This document shows, piece by piece, positions 2,905 through 25,741 of a DNA stretch of 32,188 nt; the stretch's first letter is position 1; each line of letters starts with the position of its first letter. Source of the DNA: Candidatus Dojkabacteria bacterium (GTDB lineage: Bacteria; Patescibacteriota; Dojkabacteria; JAHIVN01). The position numbers and the translations under genes are program-made. Location: positions 1-32,188 of the forward strand of contig JAQVGX010000006.1 in NCBI GenBank assembly GCA_028696515.1. The letters run 5' to 3'. The notes under the pieces were generated by a model. It saw only the letters and a program-made list of their open reading frames with translations, ran no database searches and had not been told where the DNA came from.

Positions 2905-4746
2905 TCATTCGAGAGAAACTATAAATTGATAGTTAGGTTGCCCTCCCTTTTGTGCCTGAACTTCGATTTCATGTTCTTTTTCTATAGATTCGAAAAGTGC
3001 TTTATAATGAGAAATGTTTACCTTTTTTCCAGCATAGATAGTCATGAGTTCTTCATTATTATACAGAAGCTGGATACTATTAGTTAACACCTCATGTACA
3101 TTTTCTGCACTCGAGATAACTTTGTTTTTATCTACGGAGAAGTAGTTTCCTTTTTTGATAGTGACTCCGTCTATAGTAGAGTCCTTTATCGCCTTTGAAA
3201 TAGAGAAAGTCTTAACTAAAGTTAAACCGTTTTCTATCATATCAAGATTCTTTTCTAACGATTCGTTTTTATCAAAATTTAAAATTGCCGACAGTCCCTG
3301 TACTTGATCAAATGTTTCGACGACACTGACCTGCTTTATCGACTTCTCAGCAGCTTTCTTCGCACCGATAAAGATGTTTTTGTTGTTTGGAAGTAAAATG
3401 ATGTTTTGTGACTGGGTAAAATCTATCTTTTGTGATATATCTGAAATGCTGGGATTCATGGTGTTTCCGCCAGGTATAGTATATACCCCTTCAAAACTTT
3501 CGTACATTTCTTTAAACTCGTGACTATTTACTACAGCTATCACGGCAGAATTTGAGGTTTGTGGCTCTGCCTGTATTTTTCGATTGATAAATTCTCTTTG
3601 TTGCTTGTGGATATCATCAACTTTAATTTTTTCTATCCTGCCAATTGTCGCCAATACTTTCTCAATGTTTTGCTTTTCCTTTAAGTGGAAGTGTATTTTT
3701 GTGTACTGATCCTTCTGGGCAACTATCAATGAACTGCCAAAGGCTGAAAGTTTAGTTTTTATGTTATCAGCTGACATAACAACATCTGAAAGAATTGCCT
3801 CATAGCAGTATCTTTCCTTAGGCGGTTTTTGCCACACTTGCAACAAGCTGAAGATCGATAGATTTGCCTTTTTAATATTCTGCCATTTTAGCTGAGTTCC
3901 TAGAGTCCTCATCAGATGGAATGCCTTCCTTACAGAAAGAAAGTTTTTCCCTCTTTTTAAAATGTGAAAAGCCTGTTTAAACAGCCATTTTACTTTGGAA
4001 AACGTGTATTTCAGCACTTTAAAATTAAATTCAATTATTGATCTTGCTCCTCCTGAGCCAAAGGTGCCAACTGTATCATCCCAGACACGTGCGAGTTTTG
4101 GTGATGTAAAATCATCCGAAGAAGTAGATGTTATCAGCTTTCTTCCTTCTAGGGCTTGATAAAAAGCTTCTAAGAAATAAACAAAACCTGCACCTCCTGC
4201 GTCAACTACTCCTGCCTCTTTCAGCTTATGAAGCATTTCAGGAGTTTGACGTAGAGTATTTTGTGCTTTCACAAGTGCAGCTTTCATAATTTTTTCAAGC
4301 GAATTGTACGATTGCTTTCTACCTATTTCATCCGTGGCGGATTTTATGATTGTGAGAATTGTTCCCTCGACTGGTTCTGAAACACTGTTGTATGCTTCTT
4401 TCTGTCCATTCTGAAATGCTTCGTATAATTGATTTTTATCAAGATTTGTCTCAATTTTCTCACAGAATCCTCCAATGAACTGAGAAAGAATAACTCCGCT
4501 GTTCCCACGGGCACCCATAAGACTTGCCTTTGATATTTTCATAGCAAGATTTGATATTGTTACATTCTTATCTTCTCCTATCTCCTTCATAACCTCATTC
4601 AGTGTCATCGACATGTTTGTTCCTGTATCTCCATCGGGAACCGGGTAGACGTTTAGATTGTTAAGAAGTTCTTCTTTTGATAAAAGCAATTTTTCAGCGT
4701 ATTGGAAAATTTGCTTAAGTTTTTCTGCATCAATTTCGGTGATCAT
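2905..4746 (-). CDS. fakA: Fatty acid kinase FakA (DAK2/YloV family)
   Basis: FakA phosphorylates FakB-bound fatty acids with ATP. The N-terminal DhaL-like domain (about residues 1-200) shows the Mg-ATP motifs VPDGDTGTNM and MGARGNSGVILSQ, plus VDAGGAGFVYFLEAF. A middle domain contains the YCYEAIL segment, corresponding to the YCTEF segment of FakA, and the C-terminal third is the DegV-like part ending in GGQPNYQFIVSLE, the usual family terminus. At 613 residues it is longer than typical (about 550); the extra sequence appears around residues 275-325 and is basic. I chose ATG 4746 over an upstream GTG at 4788 because a -10 box with TGC extension (TGCTATAAT) lies only 6 nt before it, inside what would otherwise be coding sequence. 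It ends in TGA. Confidence 0.93.
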   Translation of the reverse strand: MITEIDAEKLKQIFQYAEKLLLSKEELLNNLNVYPVPDGDTGTNMSMTLNEVMKEIGEDKNVTISNLAMKISKASLMGARGNSGVILSQFIGGFCEKIETNLDKNQLYEAFQNGQKEAYNSVSEPVEGTILTIIKSATDEIGRKQSYNSLEKIMKAALVKAQNTLRQTPEMLHKLKEAGVVDAGGAGFVYFLEAFYQALEGRKLITSTSSDDFTSPKLARVWDDTVGTFGSGGARSIIEFNFKVLKYTFSKVKWLFKQAFHILKRGKNFLSVRKAFHLMRTLGTQLKWQNIKKANLSIFSLLQVWQKPPKERYCYEAILSDVVMSADNIKTKLSAFGSSLIVAQKDQYTKIHFHLKEKQNIEKVLATIGRIEKIKVDDIHKQQREFINRKIQAEPQTSNSAVIAVVNSHEFKEMYESFEGVYTIPGGNTMNPSISDISQKIDFTQSQNIILLPNNKNIFIGAKKAAEKSIKQVSVVETFDQVQGLSAILNFDKNESLEKNLDMIENGLTLVKTFSISKAIKDSTIDGVTIKKGNYFSVDKNKVISSAENVHEVLTNSIQLLYNNEELMTIYAGKKVNISHYKALFESIEKEHEIEVQAQKGGQPNYQFIVSLE

Positions 4747-4752
4747 TTTGCC

Positions 4753-4758
4753 ATTATA
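4753..4758 (-). promoter_or_regulatory. -10 box of fakA, six nt from the ATG
   Basis: On the minus strand TGCTATAAT ends 6 nt before ATG 4746. This is a consensus -10 with the TGn extension. Transcription would start at or within a couple of bases of the ATG, giving a leaderless or near-leaderless mRNA. No clear -35 is seen; that region falls inside the long inverted repeat at 4767-4808. Confidence 0.55.
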
Positions 4759-4766
4759 GCAGAGGA

Positions 4767-4808
4767 GGATAAACAATTGTATAACCACGGTTATACAATT
4801 GTTTATCC
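4767..4808. repeat. Perfect 20-bp inverted repeat with a 2-bp centre
   Basis: Arms 4767-4786 and 4789-4808 are exact reverse complements (core CAATTGTATAACC / GGTTATACAATTG) around the centre AC. It lies between the asparagine-synthase-like gene and fakA, contains the TAA stop of the former (4803-4805) and covers the expected -35 region of the fakA promoter. No U-run follows on either strand, so it is not a standard intrinsic terminator. An operator, or a processing or termination hairpin, are the likely options. Confidence 0.85.
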
Positions 4809-11403: not shown

Positions 11404-14400
11404 CTATCCGCACTTACTGTACCCGCAGCTTCGGCATAATATGCATCCTTCTGCGTATTCTAAATCGCTGCTGCACTCAGGACACTCTGGCAGATCATCA
11501 TATTTATTGTCATTGGAGTATTTGGATTCGTGCTTTTCTTTTTTTGGATTCTCTGATTTTGTTGCAATGGTTTTGTCATCTTGAACAGGTTCTTTTTTTG
11601 GTCTTTCCTTTTTCTCTTCCTCTGCTATATCCTTTTCAGTTTTTACTGTGAGAGTATTATTTTCAACAAACATAGAAATTCTTCCTTCTCTTTCCTTTTT
11701 CCAGTTTTCAAGAACCTTGGCAACAGCGTCGGGAACGGAGTAAACAAACATGCCTTTGTTCAGCGTTGGAGCGGATGTTCTGATCCCTTTCAGCTGATCG
11801 ATGATTGAATCAACGCTTAACCCTGCTCTTGCGCTTATTGAGATCAATCGACCGATTGCTTCGCAATATCCGGATGAATAGCCTCCACTCTTTCCTATAT
11901 TCAAGAAAACTTCTGTAAGACCTTTTTCATCCTCGTTGATAGTCAGATAGAGTCTTCCCTGATCAGTTTGTACTTGTGTTGTTGTTCCATGTGTTATAGC
12001 TGGTCTTGGTCTTGGCTCACTTGAGACCTTGGTTTTGGATTCTTTCTGATCTTCTTGCTCTTTGATGTTGGAAGATTGAGCTTCAGCCTTACAGCCTTCC
12101 CTAAATATGGTTATACCTTTGCAGCCTAGTCGATAGGCTAAAAGGAATATGTTCCTGACATCTTTGACGGTAGCTGAGTTCGGAAGGTTTATAGTTTTCG
12201 ATACTGCCGAATCGCAATACTTTTGAAAAGCGGACTGAATTTTGACATGCTGTTCAGGCTCTATATCGTGACTAGTTTTAAATATCATCTTCACATCATT
12301 TGGGATATTTCCGAATTCTGAAATTTTCTTTCCTTCAGAAAGACTTTCCATAAGTTCCTTCGTATAAAAGCCCCTGGCCTTAGCTATTTCTTCAAAGAGA
12401 GGTTCGACCACGATTTGGTCTTCTCCGCCAAGAGACTGCATTCTTTTGAACACAAGAGAAAATATTGGTTCTATCCCGGGATTGCAATTACCGACAATTG
12501 AAACAGTCCCAGTAGGAGCTATGGTCGTACATCTAGAATTTCTCATCTTTTTTACTGCTTTTTTGTCCCAGACACTTCCTTTGAAACCGGGGAAATTTCC
12601 CCGCCTTTCAGCCAGTTTCCCGGAGGCCTGATGAGATTTTTCTTTTAAGAATTTCATTATTTTCTCAGCAACCTTTTGTGCATCGTTGCTGTCATACGGA
12701 ATTCCAAGTTTGATGAGTAAATCAGCAAAGCCCATGATCCCGAGTCCTATACTTCTTGTCTGTTTTGTCATTTTTTCGATTTGTGGTATTGGATAGTTAT
12801 TTATATCTATTATGTTATCCAAAAACTCAACTCCTGAATCAATGATACTTTCGAACTTTGCCCAGTCAATAAGGTTCAATTTATGCGCTAGGCTATGTTT
12901 TGTAATATCACTATCATCAAGAAAAGGAAATCCTTTGACTATCTTTGTTAAATTGATGTTCCCAAGATTGCAGGACTCATAAGGTAGCAGGGGTTGTTCT
13001 CCGCATACGTTAGTTGCGTCGATTTTCCCCAGATCTGGAGTAGGATTATCCTTTTCCAGCCTGTCTATGAATACTACTCCTGGATCTCCAGATGCCCAAG
13101 CGTTGGATGCGATTTTTTTAAACAAATCCTGGGCATGAAGTTTCCTATATACATTTCCATCATGCGGATCGATAAGTTCCCAGCGTTTGTCTTCCTGGAC
13201 AGCTTTCATAAACTCATCTGTAATACCTACAGAGATGTTGTAGTGAACAATATCATTATTGCCATTTTTTGCGCTGATAAATTCTGGAATGTTAGGATGA
13301 TCTATATTTAGAATCGCCATGGAACCCATCTGTCTTCCCCCGCGGCCAATAATGGTTTCCTGGGCTCTGTTGAAAACCTTCAGATATGAAACAGGTCCGG
13401 CTGCCTTTTCTCCTGTGCTGGAAACAGTCGCGTAAGTGGATCTTATTCTAGAGAAGTTAAAACCGGTTCCTCCGCCATGTCTTAAAACTTCTATATTGTC
13501 ATTTAAAGTATTGAATATGTTGCGAATAGAATCCTCGATCGGTAGTACAAAGCACTTTGACCAAATGGCTCTTTTCCCACTATCGTCACTCATTCCTGCC
13601 CAGATCAAAGCTCCTCCACATAAGAATTCAAGATTTTTCAAAATTTTCATAAATCGTTGTTTTGAATCTTCTATTTCTTTTGTCGAATATCCATACCTTT
13701 TGGATGCTCTTGATATATATTCTGCTATTCGTTCAAAGAGTTCATTGGGTGTTTCTGTAACTTTTCCATCTTTGTCTTTCCTCAATGCACGTCTTTCAAG
13801 GACGTGATAGGCATTCTTTGATAATGTGACTTCAATTTTTTCCTTTCTGTAAACATTGAACTTTTCAAGAAGTTTCTGTAGGGCTTTGTATCTGTGATGA
13901 AAACTTCTGAAATCTTCTTTGCTAGGTACTTTGGAGAAAGAATCCAATCCTTGGTGAATGAATGCTAATTCAAACTTTTTATCGTTTATCCTAACAATTC
14001 TTCCGGGTATTTTCGCAACTGTGCTTATGGTTTTGTTGCGGATAGGATCATAAATCGCTACAGCCGAAGCTATATATGCCTTAGTTGAGCTTTTTAGCTG
14101 TAGATTGATGAGCTTCTTGAATAGTGAGGCAGAATATATATTTGCTCTGCCAAGATATAAAGTTTTATCGAGAGATTTGCTTGAAAGTTTCTTTCCTACA
14201 AGAAAGCCCGTTTCGTCTGCTAGGCTTATCTTCTCGCATTTTTTTGCTACCTGAGTAGCTCTTCTGATGGCGTTTGAGATAAGCTTTTTTTCGGTAGTCT
14301 TTATCCTTACGGGGTCGTCTATGTCTATTTTGCCTTTGTATTCTTCTACCTTGAATGAACCGTTAAATTCGGATAGGAACTCCTTTATATCATTGATTTT

Positions 14401-16221
14401 CTTTTTATTCCTGCTTGCGATGACAAATTCTAAATGTTCTTTAAATTTCTTTGTCACGTTTAGCTGGCCTTCTTTTGTCGAAACATAAGTTTGAGAATCT
14501 TTGCTTCCGTCCCTAAATATAGTTACTCCTTTGAGACCTAGTTTATAAGCTTCAATAAACACTTTTCTTATGTCATCAGCAGTAGCATCGTTTGGGAAAT
14601 TGATTGTTTTGGAAATAGCGCTGTCTACACTTTCCTGGAACGCAGCCTGCATTTGAAGGTGCCATTGGGGTTCGATATCAAGTGCTGTTACCAGAACAGG
14701 TTTTAATCTATCGGGGATTTCATGAATTTCAGAAACGGAAGTTCCTGATGCTAATTGCTCTATTAGTTTTTCAGAGTAGAATTTATACTTTTTTGCCAGA
14801 TGAACAAAAGCTTGATTTACGTTAAAGAGTATTTCAGTCGCTCGATAATTCTTATCTTCTACTCCACCGATTTTGTACGCTAACGCGTAGGCAGGTTCGA
14901 TTCCTCCTGTTGCTCCGCCAATGATACTTGTATTTCCAGTTGGAGCAATTGTAGTAATAGTTGCATTTCTTAGAGGAAGATTTCTTTTCTCCCAGAGACT
15001 TCCCTTATAGGCAGGGAATGTGCCTCTTTTCTTTGCCAGCTCTAAAGAAGCTTTGATACCCTCTTGATGAATAAATTTCATGATTTTCTTAGCTAACCTG
15101 ATACCTTCAATACTGTTATAGGGGACCTCTTTGAGAATCAGAACATCTGCAAGCCCCATCAAGCCAAGTCCGATTTTCCTGTTTTTGAAGCGCGTAATTT
15201 CCTCTATTTTTTTCAGTGGAAAATAATTGATATCTACAATATTGTCTAAAAAATGAACGGCCTTATGAACTGTGTCTTTAACTTTACTCCAGTCCAGGTC
15301 GCTCTTCTTGTAATCAAAATGAGTAAGCAGGTTTATGTGACCCAAGTTACACGATTCATAAGGCAACAATGGCTGCTCACCGCAAGGATTTGTGGCGTCC
15401 ATGTGGCCGAGATTGGGAGTAGGATTTGCCTTGGCAATGTTGTCTATAAACGCAATCCCAGGATCTCCTGTTTTATAAGCCATTTGAACTATTTCGTTGA
15501 ATACATAGCTAGCGGGTAGTTCTTTTACAGCTTTGTTTGTTCTAGGGTTTATAAGCTTGAATTTTTCATCGTTTCGAAGAGCCTCCATAAAGCGATCAGT
15601 AAGTCCAACAGAAATATTGAAATTCATGATTGAGCGATCACGCTCCTTGAGGTGAATGAAGTCAAGGATATCCGGGTGATCGACATTGAGAATAGCCATA
15701 TTGCCTCCACCTCGTTTTCCGCCTTGCCTTATGCCCATCAGGGCTTCCGAAAAAGTTTTTATGATATGGACTGGCCCTGCAGCAACATCCGGTATACCTC
15801 CTGCTTCGTCTCCTTTGGGACGGATTTTTGAAAAATTGAAGCCAGTCCCGCCACCTTTCCATTGGACCTGCACTGCGTCAGAAAGCGTTTGATAGATAGA
15901 ATCCAATGAGTCTTCAAGTGGTAAAACAAAACAGGCAGAAAGAGTTTTTCTGGCACGTCCAGCGCTGATGATAGTTGGAGAGTTCGGGATAAATCTTAAG
16001 TCAAACAGAATTTCAAAAAAATCTGATTCAGCTTTAGCCCTATTCTTGTTGTCTTTTGAATAGTTGTCTTCAGCTTTTGCAACTGCAAAAGATACCCTAT
16101 GCCATAGTTCCCTTGGTGTTTCTATCGGAGTTCCGTTCCTGGTAGTCTTTAGGAATCTACTGGCTAATAATCTTTTTGAACTTTCTGTGTAACAACTTGG
16201 TAACGATTTACTGTTCTTCAT
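11404..16221 (-). CDS. Giant fusion: class II RNR - HAM1/ITPase-like - class II RNR - TSCPD - Cys tail
   Basis: One uninterrupted frame (numbering here from an upstream ATG at 16248; I prefer the start at residue 10, ATG 16221, because TATAAT lies 10 nt before it). Module 1 (about 20-600) and module 2 (about 808-1390) are each a complete adenosylcobalamin-type ribonucleotide reductase. Both have the GGGTGFNFS loop, NxCGEQPLLPYESCNLG with the thiyl-radical Cys (Cys289, Cys1082), the redox pair (Cys106/Cys300; Cys899/Cys1093) and the APTG loop. Between them, residues 608-797 match HAM1/RdgB-type NTP pyrophosphatase: ASRNKKKINDI, ISNAIRRA, SLADETGF and FHHRYKAL. The Glu of the ENAxxKA motif is Ser here. 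A TSCPD domain (1417-1520), a charged linker and a redox or zinc tail with CxxC pairs (1589-1613) end the protein. Usual NrdJ length is 700-1000; this one is 1605. A (deoxy)nucleotide-kinase-like gene and a third RNR lie upstream. Confidence 0.9.
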   Translation of the reverse strand: MKNSKSLPSCYTESSKRLLASRFLKTTRNGTPIETPRELWHRVSFAVAKAEDNYSKDNKNRAKAESDFFEILFDLRFIPNSPTIISAGRARKTLSACFVLPLEDSLDSIYQTLSDAVQVQWKGGGTGFNFSKIRPKGDEAGGIPDVAAGPVHIIKTFSEALMGIRQGGKRGGGNMAILNVDHPDILDFIHLKERDRSIMNFNISVGLTDRFMEALRNDEKFKLINPRTNKAVKELPASYVFNEIVQMAYKTGDPGIAFIDNIAKANPTPNLGHMDATNPCGEQPLLPYESCNLGHINLLTHFDYKKSDLDWSKVKDTVHKAVHFLDNIVDINYFPLKKIEEITRFKNRKIGLGLMGLADVLILKEVPYNSIEGIRLAKKIMKFIHQEGIKASLELAKKRGTFPAYKGSLWEKRNLPLRNATITTIAPTGNTSIIGGATGGIEPAYALAYKIGGVEDKNYRATEILFNVNQAFVHLAKKYKFYSEKLIEQLASGTSVSEIHEIPDRLKPVLVTALDIEPQWHLQMQAAFQESVDSAISKTINFPNDATADDIRKVFIEAYKLGLKGVTIFRDGSKDSQTYVSTKEGQLNVTKKFKEHLEFVIASRNKKKINDIKEFLSEFNGSFKVEEYKGKIDIDDPVRIKTTEKKLISNAIRRATQVAKKCEKISLADETGFLVGKKLSSKSLDKTLYLGRANIYSASLFKKLINLQLKSSTKAYIASAVAIYDPIRNKTISTVAKIPGRIVRINDKKFELAFIHQGLDSFSKVPSKEDFRSFHHRYKALQKLLEKFNVYRKEKIEVTLSKNAYHVLERRALRKDKDGKVTETPNELFERIAEYISRASKRYGYSTKEIEDSKQRFMKILKNLEFLCGGALIWAGMSDDSGKRAIWSKCFVLPIEDSIRNIFNTLNDNIEVLRHGGGTGFNFSRIRSTYATVSSTGEKAAGPVSYLKVFNRAQETIIGRGGRQMGSMAILNIDHPNIPEFISAKNGNNDIVHYNISVGITDEFMKAVQEDKRWELIDPHDGNVYRKLHAQDLFKKIASNAWASGDPGVVFIDRLEKDNPTPDLGKIDATNVCGEQPLLPYESCNLGNINLTKIVKGFPFLDDSDITKHSLAHKLNLIDWAKFESIIDSGVEFLDNIIDINNYPIPQIEKMTKQTRSIGLGIMGFADLLIKLGIPYDSNDAQKVAEKIMKFLKEKSHQASGKLAERRGNFPGFKGSVWDKKAVKKMRNSRCTTIAPTGTVSIVGNCNPGIEPIFSLVFKRMQSLGGEDQIVVEPLFEEIAKARGFYTKELMESLSEGKKISEFGNIPNDVKMIFKTSHDIEPEQHVKIQSAFQKYCDSAVSKTINLPNSATVKDVRNIFLLAYRLGCKGITIFREGCKAEAQSSNIKEQEDQKESKTKVSSEPRPRPAITHGTTTQVQTDQGRLYLTINEDEKGLTEVFLNIGKSGGYSSGYCEAIGRLISISARAGLSVDSIIDQLKGIRTSAPTLNKGMFVYSVPDAVAKVLENWKKEREGRISMFVENNTLTVKTEKDIAEEEKKERPKKEPVQDDKTIATKSENPKKEKHESKYSNDNKYDDLPECPECSSDLEYAEGCILCRSCGYSKCG

Positions 16222-16231
16222 GTGAATATAG

Positions 16232-16237
16232 ATTATA
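16232..16237 (-). promoter_or_regulatory. -10 box of the RNR fusion gene
   Basis: TATAAT on the minus strand is 10 nt before ATG 16221 and would lie inside the coding region if the upstream ATG 16248 were used, so it argues for the shorter start. There is no -35 consensus and no Shine-Dalgarno sequence. I saw no convincing NrdR-box pair in the upstream 80 bp. Confidence 0.5.
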
Positions 16238-16328
16238 AAAAAGCGCAAAAAATTAAGCCTGAGTTTTGTTTGAGACTTGTTTGACTATGTGATTTGTGTT
16301 AGATTTGCCCCAAGCAAATTTCTATTGA

Positions 16329-16991: not shown

Positions 16992-18764
16992 CTATGTTAT
17001 CTTATTTTGCTTTTTTTGGCTACTAGTCACATTAAGAACCTGTTTATCCCTGCTTTTATCCCTGTAAATGGTCACTCCCTTAAGTTTCAGGCTGTGTGCT
17101 TCAAGATATACACTTTCTATTTCCTTCTCTGTAGTTGACTCCTTCACATTCAGAGTTTTTGAAACAGCGTTGTCAGTGTATTTTTGAAAAGCCGCTTGCA
17201 TCTTCAAGTGCCATTCTGGTGCAATCTCATAAGTAGTTCTAAAAATTCTTTTAATTTTGTCGGGGATATCCTCTATATTACTGATACTTCCAGAAGCAGA
17301 GACCTCCCTCATCAATTTTTTACTGAATAACCACTCTTCTTTTAGAGCTTTTTCGAGTGATTCATTTACAAAGTAAATCTTTTGATTATCTAAAGTCTCC
17401 ATGTTTTCTCGCGAGTACGCCAAAGCAAAGAAGGGTTCTACTCCGCTGTTGCAATCAGCAAAGAGTGATCTCGTTCCTGTCGGCGCTATTGTGGTAACAG
17501 TTGCGTTACGCATGTTCTTGAATCCGCGTTTATAGAATAAACTTTTTTTAAAGTTAGCAAAGTTTCCACGGATTCTCCCGAGTTTAGAGCTTTCATCTCT
17601 AGCGTTATTTTGTATGAAGCGCATAATTTTTTCTGCAAGTTTTACACCTTTGTCGCTATCATAAGGTATACGAAGTTCTGCAAGTAGGTCAGCCCATCCC
17701 AGTACACCTATTCCGATTTTTCTGTTCCCTTCTACATTTATCTTTTGTATTTCGGGAAGCACGTTATACCCAAGTTCTATCATATTATCAAGATATCGAA
17801 CTGCAAGTCTTGTTACTTCAGCTAATCTTTTCCACTTTATACCTTCTTTGGAGTTTTTTTCGTAGAATTTGTTTAAAGTAATTCCTCCTAGATAACATGC
17901 CTCAAAAGGCAGAAGTGGCTGTTCTCCGCACAAGTTGGTCGCACTAATCCTGCCAACTCCTGGAACGGTATTTTTTCTGTTTATCTCATCTATAAATATG
18001 ATACCTGGTTCGGCACTTTGGTGAACGCTCTTGGCGATAAGCTCCATCAAATACTTTGCATCAACTTTTGAAGCAACTTGGCCGCTGGATGGATCCCTGA
18101 GGCTTACGTGCGAACCGGTTTTATATGCGCGCATGAAACTATCCGTTATTGCTACTGAGAGATTAAAATTTGTCAACTGAGAGTAATCTTCCTTTGCTTT
18201 TATGAATTTTTCAATATCAGGGTGGTCTATCCTCAGGATTCCCATATGTCCTGCATGACGAGCACTTCCTCTATTTAGTATTATTTCAGACGAGAAGTCG
18301 AAAAGACGCATAAAGGAGATAGGGCCCGAAGCTTCTTTGCCGGTCGAATGAACTGTTGATCCTTCAGGTCGTAGTTTTGAGAAATCATAACCAATACCTG
18401 CTCCTAGTCTATGTAGCTGGACGGAGTAATACAGAGTATGATATATTGATTCCAGGCTATCTTCAAGTGGAAGCACATAACACTCCGCCATCAGTCGTTT
18501 CAATCCTCTATCATGCATAGGTGTTCCTGAAAGAAATTCCAAGGAAGCCTGCATTTGATAAAAGTCATCTTCAAGCATTTTCACTTCCTTTGGAGTAGTA
18601 TGGAATCTTTTCTCAGCTGAAGCTATGAGTTTTGATATCCGTATGAACATGTCGCGTGCAGTTTCTTTGACTTTTCCGTGACTATCTTTCAACAAATATC
18701 TGCTGTTTGCTATCAACTGTTGTTTTTCATTGAGTTTTGGTTCGATATAGAATCTTCTTGGCAT
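16992..18764 (-). CDS. Stand-alone class II ribonucleotide reductase, short form
   Basis: A 590-residue reductase domain, homologous to both modules of the fusion protein encoded downstream. The catalytic cysteines are all present: Cys95 (ECYVLP), Cys279 (the thiyl position in NLCGEQPLLP) and Cys290 (FEACYLG). The APTGT loop is present too (TTIAPTGTRSLF). The glycine-rich loop differs: GAGIGYDFS instead of GGGTGFNFS. It ends soon after KGVTIYRDKSRDKQ, with no TSCPD domain and no C-terminal cysteine pair, so re-reduction would need a partner, perhaps the tail of the fusion protein. No ATP-cone is evident. Transcription probably runs on to the kinase-like gene 36 bp downstream. I saw no clear promoter near its ATG. 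It likely makes deoxynucleotides, but substrate specificity cannot be read here. Confidence 0.9.
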   Translation of the reverse strand: MPRRFYIEPKLNEKQQLIANSRYLLKDSHGKVKETARDMFIRISKLIASAEKRFHTTPKEVKMLEDDFYQMQASLEFLSGTPMHDRGLKRLMAECYVLPLEDSLESIYHTLYYSVQLHRLGAGIGYDFSKLRPEGSTVHSTGKEASGPISFMRLFDFSSEIILNRGSARHAGHMGILRIDHPDIEKFIKAKEDYSQLTNFNLSVAITDSFMRAYKTGSHVSLRDPSSGQVASKVDAKYLMELIAKSVHQSAEPGIIFIDEINRKNTVPGVGRISATNLCGEQPLLPFEACYLGGITLNKFYEKNSKEGIKWKRLAEVTRLAVRYLDNMIELGYNVLPEIQKINVEGNRKIGIGVLGWADLLAELRIPYDSDKGVKLAEKIMRFIQNNARDESSKLGRIRGNFANFKKSLFYKRGFKNMRNATVTTIAPTGTRSLFADCNSGVEPFFALAYSRENMETLDNQKIYFVNESLEKALKEEWLFSKKLMREVSASGSISNIEDIPDKIKRIFRTTYEIAPEWHLKMQAAFQKYTDNAVSKTLNVKESTTEKEIESVYLEAHSLKLKGVTIYRDKSRDKQVLNVTSSQKKQNKIT

Positions 18765-25029: not shown

Positions 25030-25741
25030 CAGTCGCCTTGTAGTCGGATTAATGTATTTCGAAGAAGAAACGGTAAAATGCGACCACTGGTCGCATAATA
25101 TTTTGGATTTGATGCGACGAGGTCGTCGCATTCTACGTAAGATGATAAAGAATGTAGATTTCAAAAAGCAACCGCCAAGACTATATGAAAATAATTCAAG
25201 TTATTTTCTTACTTTTAATACATATATGAGAAATAATATTCTTATCGCTAAAGGCGTCCCAGAAATTCTAATTGATTCACTGAACTTCCAATCTCGTTCG
25301 CCAGATCTTAGGCTAATGGCACATGTTATTCTGAATGATCACCTTCACCTTATGATTGACTGTAATGATGCCAGGAGGATTTCAATGTTTCTAAAAAGGT
25401 TTAAATCTTATACAGCTAAGCAGATCAAAAATTTACTTGGAATAGATAGAAAAATTATCTGGCAGCGCGGTTCGTATGATCATGTCATTCGAGATGATGA
25501 AGATTTTGATAATCATCTAGATTATATTCATTATAATCCTGTTAAACATGGTTTCGTGAAGAAGCCTGAAGAATGGAAATGGTCAAGTTATTCAAATTAT
25601 GTTAAGAAGAAGATATACGAGATTGGTTGGGGATGGGATGAATTAGATTTTAAAGACGATAAAGGTTATACTTGGGGAGAATAATCTTTAGAATTATTTT
25701 GTAACCTTATAATAAAATAATCCGCCTACAAGGCAGATGCT
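25028..25741 (+). mobile_element. RAYT unit: flanking inverted repeats, REP hairpins and transposase
   Basis: Left repeat 25028-25051 and right repeat 25718-25741 are inverted copies matching at 20 of 24 positions (shared core GCCTTGTAG / CTACAAGGC). Inside the left end are two perfect hairpins with the same stem start. The first is ATGCGACC-act-GGTCGCAT (25078-25096). The second is ATGCGACGA-gg-TCGTCGCAT (25112-25131). A REP-associated tyrosine transposase gene follows. This is the layout of a RAYT with its REP/BIME substrates. No target duplication could be judged. Confidence 0.7.
25142..25684 (+). CDS. REP-associated tyrosine transposase (RAYT, IS200/Y1-like)
   Basis: RAYTs are single-strand-specific Y1 nucleases that act on REP hairpins. 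The protein has the HUH-type motif as NDHLHLMID, the segment SYDHVIRDDEDFDNHLDYIH carrying the candidate catalytic tyrosine, and the hallmark YNPVKHGFV...EWKWSSY terminus. A longer frame starts at ATG 25052, but its first 30 codons are translated REP hairpins, so I choose ATG 25142 (180 residues), which puts the hairpins in the upstream untranslated region. The domain looks complete. It follows the glycosyltransferase gene and may be read from outside. Confidence 0.88.
   Translation: MIKNVDFKKQPPRLYENNSSYFLTFNTYMRNNILIAKGVPEILIDSLNFQSRSPDLRLMAHVILNDHLHLMIDCNDARRISMFLKRFKSYTAKQIKNLLGIDRKIIWQRGSYDHVIRDDEDFDNHLDYIHYNPVKHGFVKKPEEWKWSSYSNYVKKKIYEIGWGWDELDFKDDKGYTWGE

Follow-up and report, generated by a model that had tools for sequence, protein, structure and literature searches.

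The window, by which we mean the whole 32,188-nt stretch analysed here, corresponds to contig C57 of a draft genome (labelled G000) that totals 1.64 Mb and comprises 128 contigs. On its minus strand, an asparagine-synthase-like gene (PF00733; 4803-5702) that bears a hairpin at its 3′ end precedes a fakA-like gene (Dak2, FakA-like_M and FakA-like_C domains; 2905-4746), the ATG of which occupies positions 4744-4746. Specifically, the hairpin is the palindrome GGATAAACAATTGTATAACC-AC-GGTTATACAATTGTTTATCC at 4767-4808 (42 bp, no strand assigned), with two perfect 20-bp arms around a 2-nt centre, exactly where the original prediction had placed a near-symmetric element. It is the top hairpin of the window by a wide margin (20 versus 10.5 for the runner-up), and about 1e-6 such hairpins would be expected by chance in 32 kb, which bears out the earlier judgement that the element is long for chance. 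As had been described, the palindrome takes in the stop codon (TAA, 4803-4805, minus strand) that ends the asparagine-synthase-like gene.

On the fakA side, an extended −10-like element, TGCTATAAT (4753-4761, minus strand), lies downstream of the palindrome, its TATAAT hexamer starting 8 nt past the palindrome end. The description of the palindrome as covering the '−35 region of fakA' holds in terms of position only, as no good −35 hexamer is visible there. The lack of a U-run, also reported earlier, is borne out by the sequence directly 3′ of the hairpin, TCCTCTGC, and Rfam 15 returned no match above gathering score in the whole window. The predicted RNA fold of the element reaches z-scores of −8.7 and −9.2 on the two strands. 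Given this folding on both strands, the second of the proposed functions, that of an RNA hairpin separating the genes, is the better fit; the dispersed 11-bp family and the S23 link described below could not be seen from the window sequence.

Elsewhere in the window, a 1614-aa ORF (11404-16248, minus strand) encodes two ribonucleotide-reductase large-subunit modules separated by a Ham1-family (ITPase-like) domain, followed close to the C terminus by a TSCPD domain. A third reductase gene occupies 16992-18764. The window also encodes a REP-associated tyrosine transposase (25052-25684, plus strand; NF047646, above cut-off), with no palindrome family evident alongside.

An 11-bp repeat unit dispersed across genomes

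A search of the genome for further copies, the check that had accompanied the original prediction, recovered no second exact GTATAACCNNGGTTATAC but did recover diverged relatives. When the palindrome arms were used in a mismatch-tolerant search, related palindromes emerged at other gene boundaries, and their comparison revealed that the unit ACNATNGTNNN recurs every 11 bp. A three-unit pattern allowing at most three mismatches had 34 matches per strand in G000, 39 in its genus-mate G001 (a Patescibacteria metagenome bin, JAHIVN01) and none in the sister genus (G002), and reversed-pattern controls gave no matches in any of these genomes. Because matches overlap within arrays, these counts correspond to roughly twenty sites per genus genome.

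The window palindrome is among the matches. Its sequence on the plus strand divides into a first unit, ACAATTGTATA (4773-4783), which corresponds to ACNATNGTNNN, a degenerate second unit, ACCACGGTTAT (4784-4794), and a third unit, ACAATTGTTTA (4795-4805), the final three bases of which form, on the minus strand, the TAA that ends the asparagine-synthase-like gene. The agreement extends to 17 of 18 fixed positions despite the degenerate middle unit; a random palindrome of equal composition reaches 15 of 18 with a probability of 0.0002. Sequence, folding and pattern search, with three units at an 11-bp period placed at a gene 3′ end, identify the palindrome as an ORF-less hairpin belonging to a dispersed family of short-repeat arrays. 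Across 84,980 species genomes, at least 118 stretches contain the three-unit pattern without mismatch; some of these, about 17 as estimated from base composition, may be due to chance. The hosts include Clostridia, Bacteroidota, Synergistota, Armatimonadota and Patescibacteria, among others, and the unit has fixed AC-AT-GT positions across phyla.

These data also bear on the transposase gene of the window, the product of which could in principle have mobilised the palindrome as a REP-type element. REPs are extragenic palindromes, and the gene exceeds the NCBIfam REP_Tyr_transpos cut-off. Yet the window contains no other array, neither an array nor a strong palindrome lies beside the transposase gene, no homologue of the transposase was found in the 118 array-bearing loci of other genomes, and REPs are not characterised by an 11-bp period. 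We regard a REP origin as highly improbable. Integron attC sites and CRISPR-like sites were also considered and were dropped, with no supporting consensus.

Arrays at gene 3′ ends and the fakA gap of relatives

In G000 and G001 together, 22 of 26 arrays with an adjacent gene 3′ end lie at most 20 bp from the stop codon, at a median distance of 1 bp. Among other genomes, which were picked for array content and in which genes were called mechanically as open reading frames, 34 of 114 intergenic arrays fall between convergent genes, versus 108 of 643 gene pairs. Array sites common to G000 and G001 comprise C75/C129 (gyrB), C109/C116 (femAB), C46/C26 and C32/C38 (sulfate cluster), and the stem at the gyrB site carries four compensatory A-T to G-C changes between the two species. 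The folding z-scores of other arrays run from −10.6 to +1.8, the upper value being that of a Clostridiales array, so hairpin formation is common without being universal. Since some arrays do not fold as hairpins, the conserved feature may be the repeat unit instead of the hairpin.

A strong fold positioned just after a stop codon could be a plain intrinsic terminator or a 3′-end stabiliser of the asparagine-synthase-like gene, bearing no relation to S23, and both the enrichment of arrays between convergent genes and the compensatory changes at the conserved gyrB site would suit such a role. For a terminator, however, an 11-bp unit with positions fixed across phyla would be superfluous, some arrays do not fold, and the window hairpin is devoid of a U-run. 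Moreover, array hairpins are not the general terminator of this genome, because few occur in the ~270 kb of sampled G000 contigs. On balance, we consider a plain terminator or stabiliser unlikely.

The original prediction had also envisioned the operator of a fatty-acid-responsive repressor. Both G001 and G002 retain the order of the asparagine-synthase-like gene and fakA, together with the conserved CTGCTATAAT and the same −10-like element at the orthologous fakA site (CTCTGCTATAAT in G001), but the palindrome is absent from the fakA gap of both, at variance with the conservation at orthologous promoters expected of an operator. Related elements adjoin unrelated genes (gyrB, femAB and sulfate-activation genes), and in many cases the flanking genes converge, which leaves an operator nothing to regulate. 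The location of arrays directly after stop codons and their excess in convergent gene pairs make an operator responsive to fatty acids unlikely. The fakA gap of G002 (L016) instead holds an 8-bp-period repeat, AACTATCT AGCTATTT AACTATTT, scoring 16/20, a value reached by 0.15% of shuffles. No empty-site pair displays an insertion event, and the divergence of G001 is too great for a gain, as opposed to a loss, to be proven. Another perfect palindrome pair, with the core TTGATTAATCAA and outside the 11-bp family, was observed at L015:1832-1863 and L031:6946-6973; the G001 member of the pair is located upstream of the asparagine-synthase-like gene, and the G000 member upstream of an ABC transporter.

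The sulfate-activation cluster (L113, G000:C32, 9230-12478; L114, G001:C38, 639-3913) has 11-bp arrays in nearly every gap and encodes ATP sulfurylase, APS kinase, a sulfotransferase, an Rrf2 regulator and a small putative ribbon-helix-helix protein. The last two were at first plausible partners of the arrays because both are encoded within this array-rich cluster. Under this explanation, the array would be a DNA operator; a transcription factor, for example, one of these two regulators, would bind the 11-bp repeats and thereby control fakA among other genes. Operators typically have one repeat per helical turn; at the window, C75 and C109, the palindrome stops 7-8 nt before a −10-like hexamer; and both genus genomes encode Rrf2 (best match) as well as the small protein, with neither found in the array-free sister genus. 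Conversely, arrays hug stop codons, are enriched between convergent genes and occupy nearly every gap in a series of genes that share one direction, the genes neighbouring them have no common pathway, the fakA site is not conserved in G001 and G002, and no relative of Rrf2 or of the small protein was found near arrays in other phyla. The location of arrays between convergent genes, and the failure of either protein to recur near arrays elsewhere, led us to reject the two as partners, and an operator of any such factor appears to us decidedly unlikely.

S23 genes flanked by inverted arrays

Contigs C32 and C38 each contain one S23/IVP four-helix protein gene (PF05635) with an array on each side, and in G000:C32 the gene is bracketed on both sides by the same ACNATNGT-type repeat unit as that of the window element. 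The AlphaFold model of the G000 S23 protein (L113:12482-12874) is a four-helix bundle (pLDDT 91) that matches the solved IVP proteins 2gsc and 2rld. In a sample of 88 PF05635 genes from ~20 genomes, with 11-bp arrays counted within 250 bp, ACNATNGT arrays occur beside nine genes and on both sides of six (Patescibacteria, Armatimonadota, Bacteroidota and Clostridia). All nine belong to one part of the S23 tree, joined by a weak node (0.57); their tree neighbours have period-8 arrays, and period 7 occurs elsewhere.

When periods 7, 8 and 11, which were selected after inspection of the S23 data, were assessed under one rule, arrays were found on at least one side of 57 of the 88 S23 genes and on both sides of 23, versus 53 and 2, respectively, of 726 control genes drawn mostly from the same or related genomes. 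Where arrays are two-sided, the inverted orientation is better than the direct one in 37 of 41 cases. A held-out Patescibacteria set has period 7 in 20 of 48 S23 flanks versus 4 of 216 control windows, with no period-11 case. The array period tracks the S23 tree, requiring 14 changes against a shuffle mean of 20.5, and no shuffle was as low.

One Bacteroidota genome contains two S23 copies that share a 452-bp block (88% identical), which begins inside the array and extends to the vicinity of the S23 3′ end; outside it, the two copies show no similarity. S23 genes were identified in 72 of 117 sampled Patescibacteria genomes and in many array-bearing genomes of other phyla, whereas no S23 gene was found in G039, G043 and G053, each with many arrays, or beside a ACNATNGT array in G041, G044 and G046. 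The S23 genes of G049 (Patescibacteria RA.bin82; L271, L283 and L304) contain in-frame TGA codons, which suggests either recoded TGA or pseudogenes.

A proposed S23-linked element

The family membership of the palindrome, its 3′-end placement, its absence from this site in relatives, the statistical linkage between arrays and S23 genes, and one block duplication are direct observations, and the overall pattern suggests a small, largely undescribed mobile element, not a switch for the neighbouring fatty-acid gene. Because the intergenic window copy has a 2-nt centre and no ORF, we class it among ORF-less relatives and not among S23 elements, which carry their ORF between inverted repeats. In our assessment, it is probably a member of an array family the gene-carrying form of which is an S23 gene (PF05635) bracketed by inverted arrays, and it may have been derived from such an element. 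The S23 protein would act on or bind the repeats, and the element would be capable of movement. At the window, read-through RNA from the asparagine-synthase-like gene would fold as a 19-20-bp hairpin that might be cut by a double-strand RNase or might stall an exonuclease; the asparagine-synthase-like transcript would thereby be separated from fakA, which retains its own −10.

The gene-carrying form would have the layout of the 23S rRNA intervening sequence. In Coxiella burnetii, this element, described as selfish, contains an S23 ORF and terminal inverted repeats forming a stem and is excised by RNase III; in Coxiella strains, the S23 start is preceded by two or three tandem heptamers, GACAGAT (PMC4990558). 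An S23 ORF between inverted repeats is the shared trait, and most simply the intergenic S23 genes would belong to this general kind of element. Unlike the intervening sequence, the S23 elements described here reside in ordinary intergenic DNA, tandem arrays with a period of 7, 8 or 11 bp make up their inverted repeats, and arrays that have no ORF are dispersed through the genome. The latter property recalls the REP/REPIN and RAYT system (PMC3116915), in which small dispersed extragenic palindromes are linked to a protein gene of one or a few copies; by contrast with RAYT (Y1/HUH), S23 is a four-helix bundle, the stems are tandem repeats, and the fixed period tracks the protein phylogeny. The fold is also that of Avd of diversity-generating retroelements, with the G000 S23 model matching 4dwl and 8ube (TM ~0.73, E 6e-3) more weakly than the IVP proteins and with weak sequence similarity, but S23 scores 23 against the curated Avd cut-off of 80 bits. 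The STRR of filamentous cyanobacteria are short tandem heptamers dispersed in intergenic regions, and they resemble the present arrays in being short tandem units scattered between genes.

To our knowledge, no function has been assigned to S23/IVP genes beyond rRNA intervening sequences. The openly licensed literature, in which our coverage was partial and silence is weak evidence, yielded no paper tying S23 to dispersed tandem repeats or describing intergenic arrayed S23 elements. A 2023 Science paper names the 23S rRNA IVP solely in a figure legend on CRISPR-associated genes (PMC10910872).

More tentatively, and at somewhat less than even odds in our estimation, S23 (IVP) proteins might define a widespread, undescribed class of small mobile elements, in which inverted 7-, 8- or 11-bp arrays have a period set by clade and recognised by the protein, and array-only copies have spread to gene 3′ ends. 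The tie between array period and S23 clade, together with the inversion of the repeats around the gene, provides a testable nucleic-acid target for the S23 family, and the link between S23 and arrays may account for many of the short tandem repeats that occur, so far unexplained, at the ends of genes in metagenome-assembled genomes.
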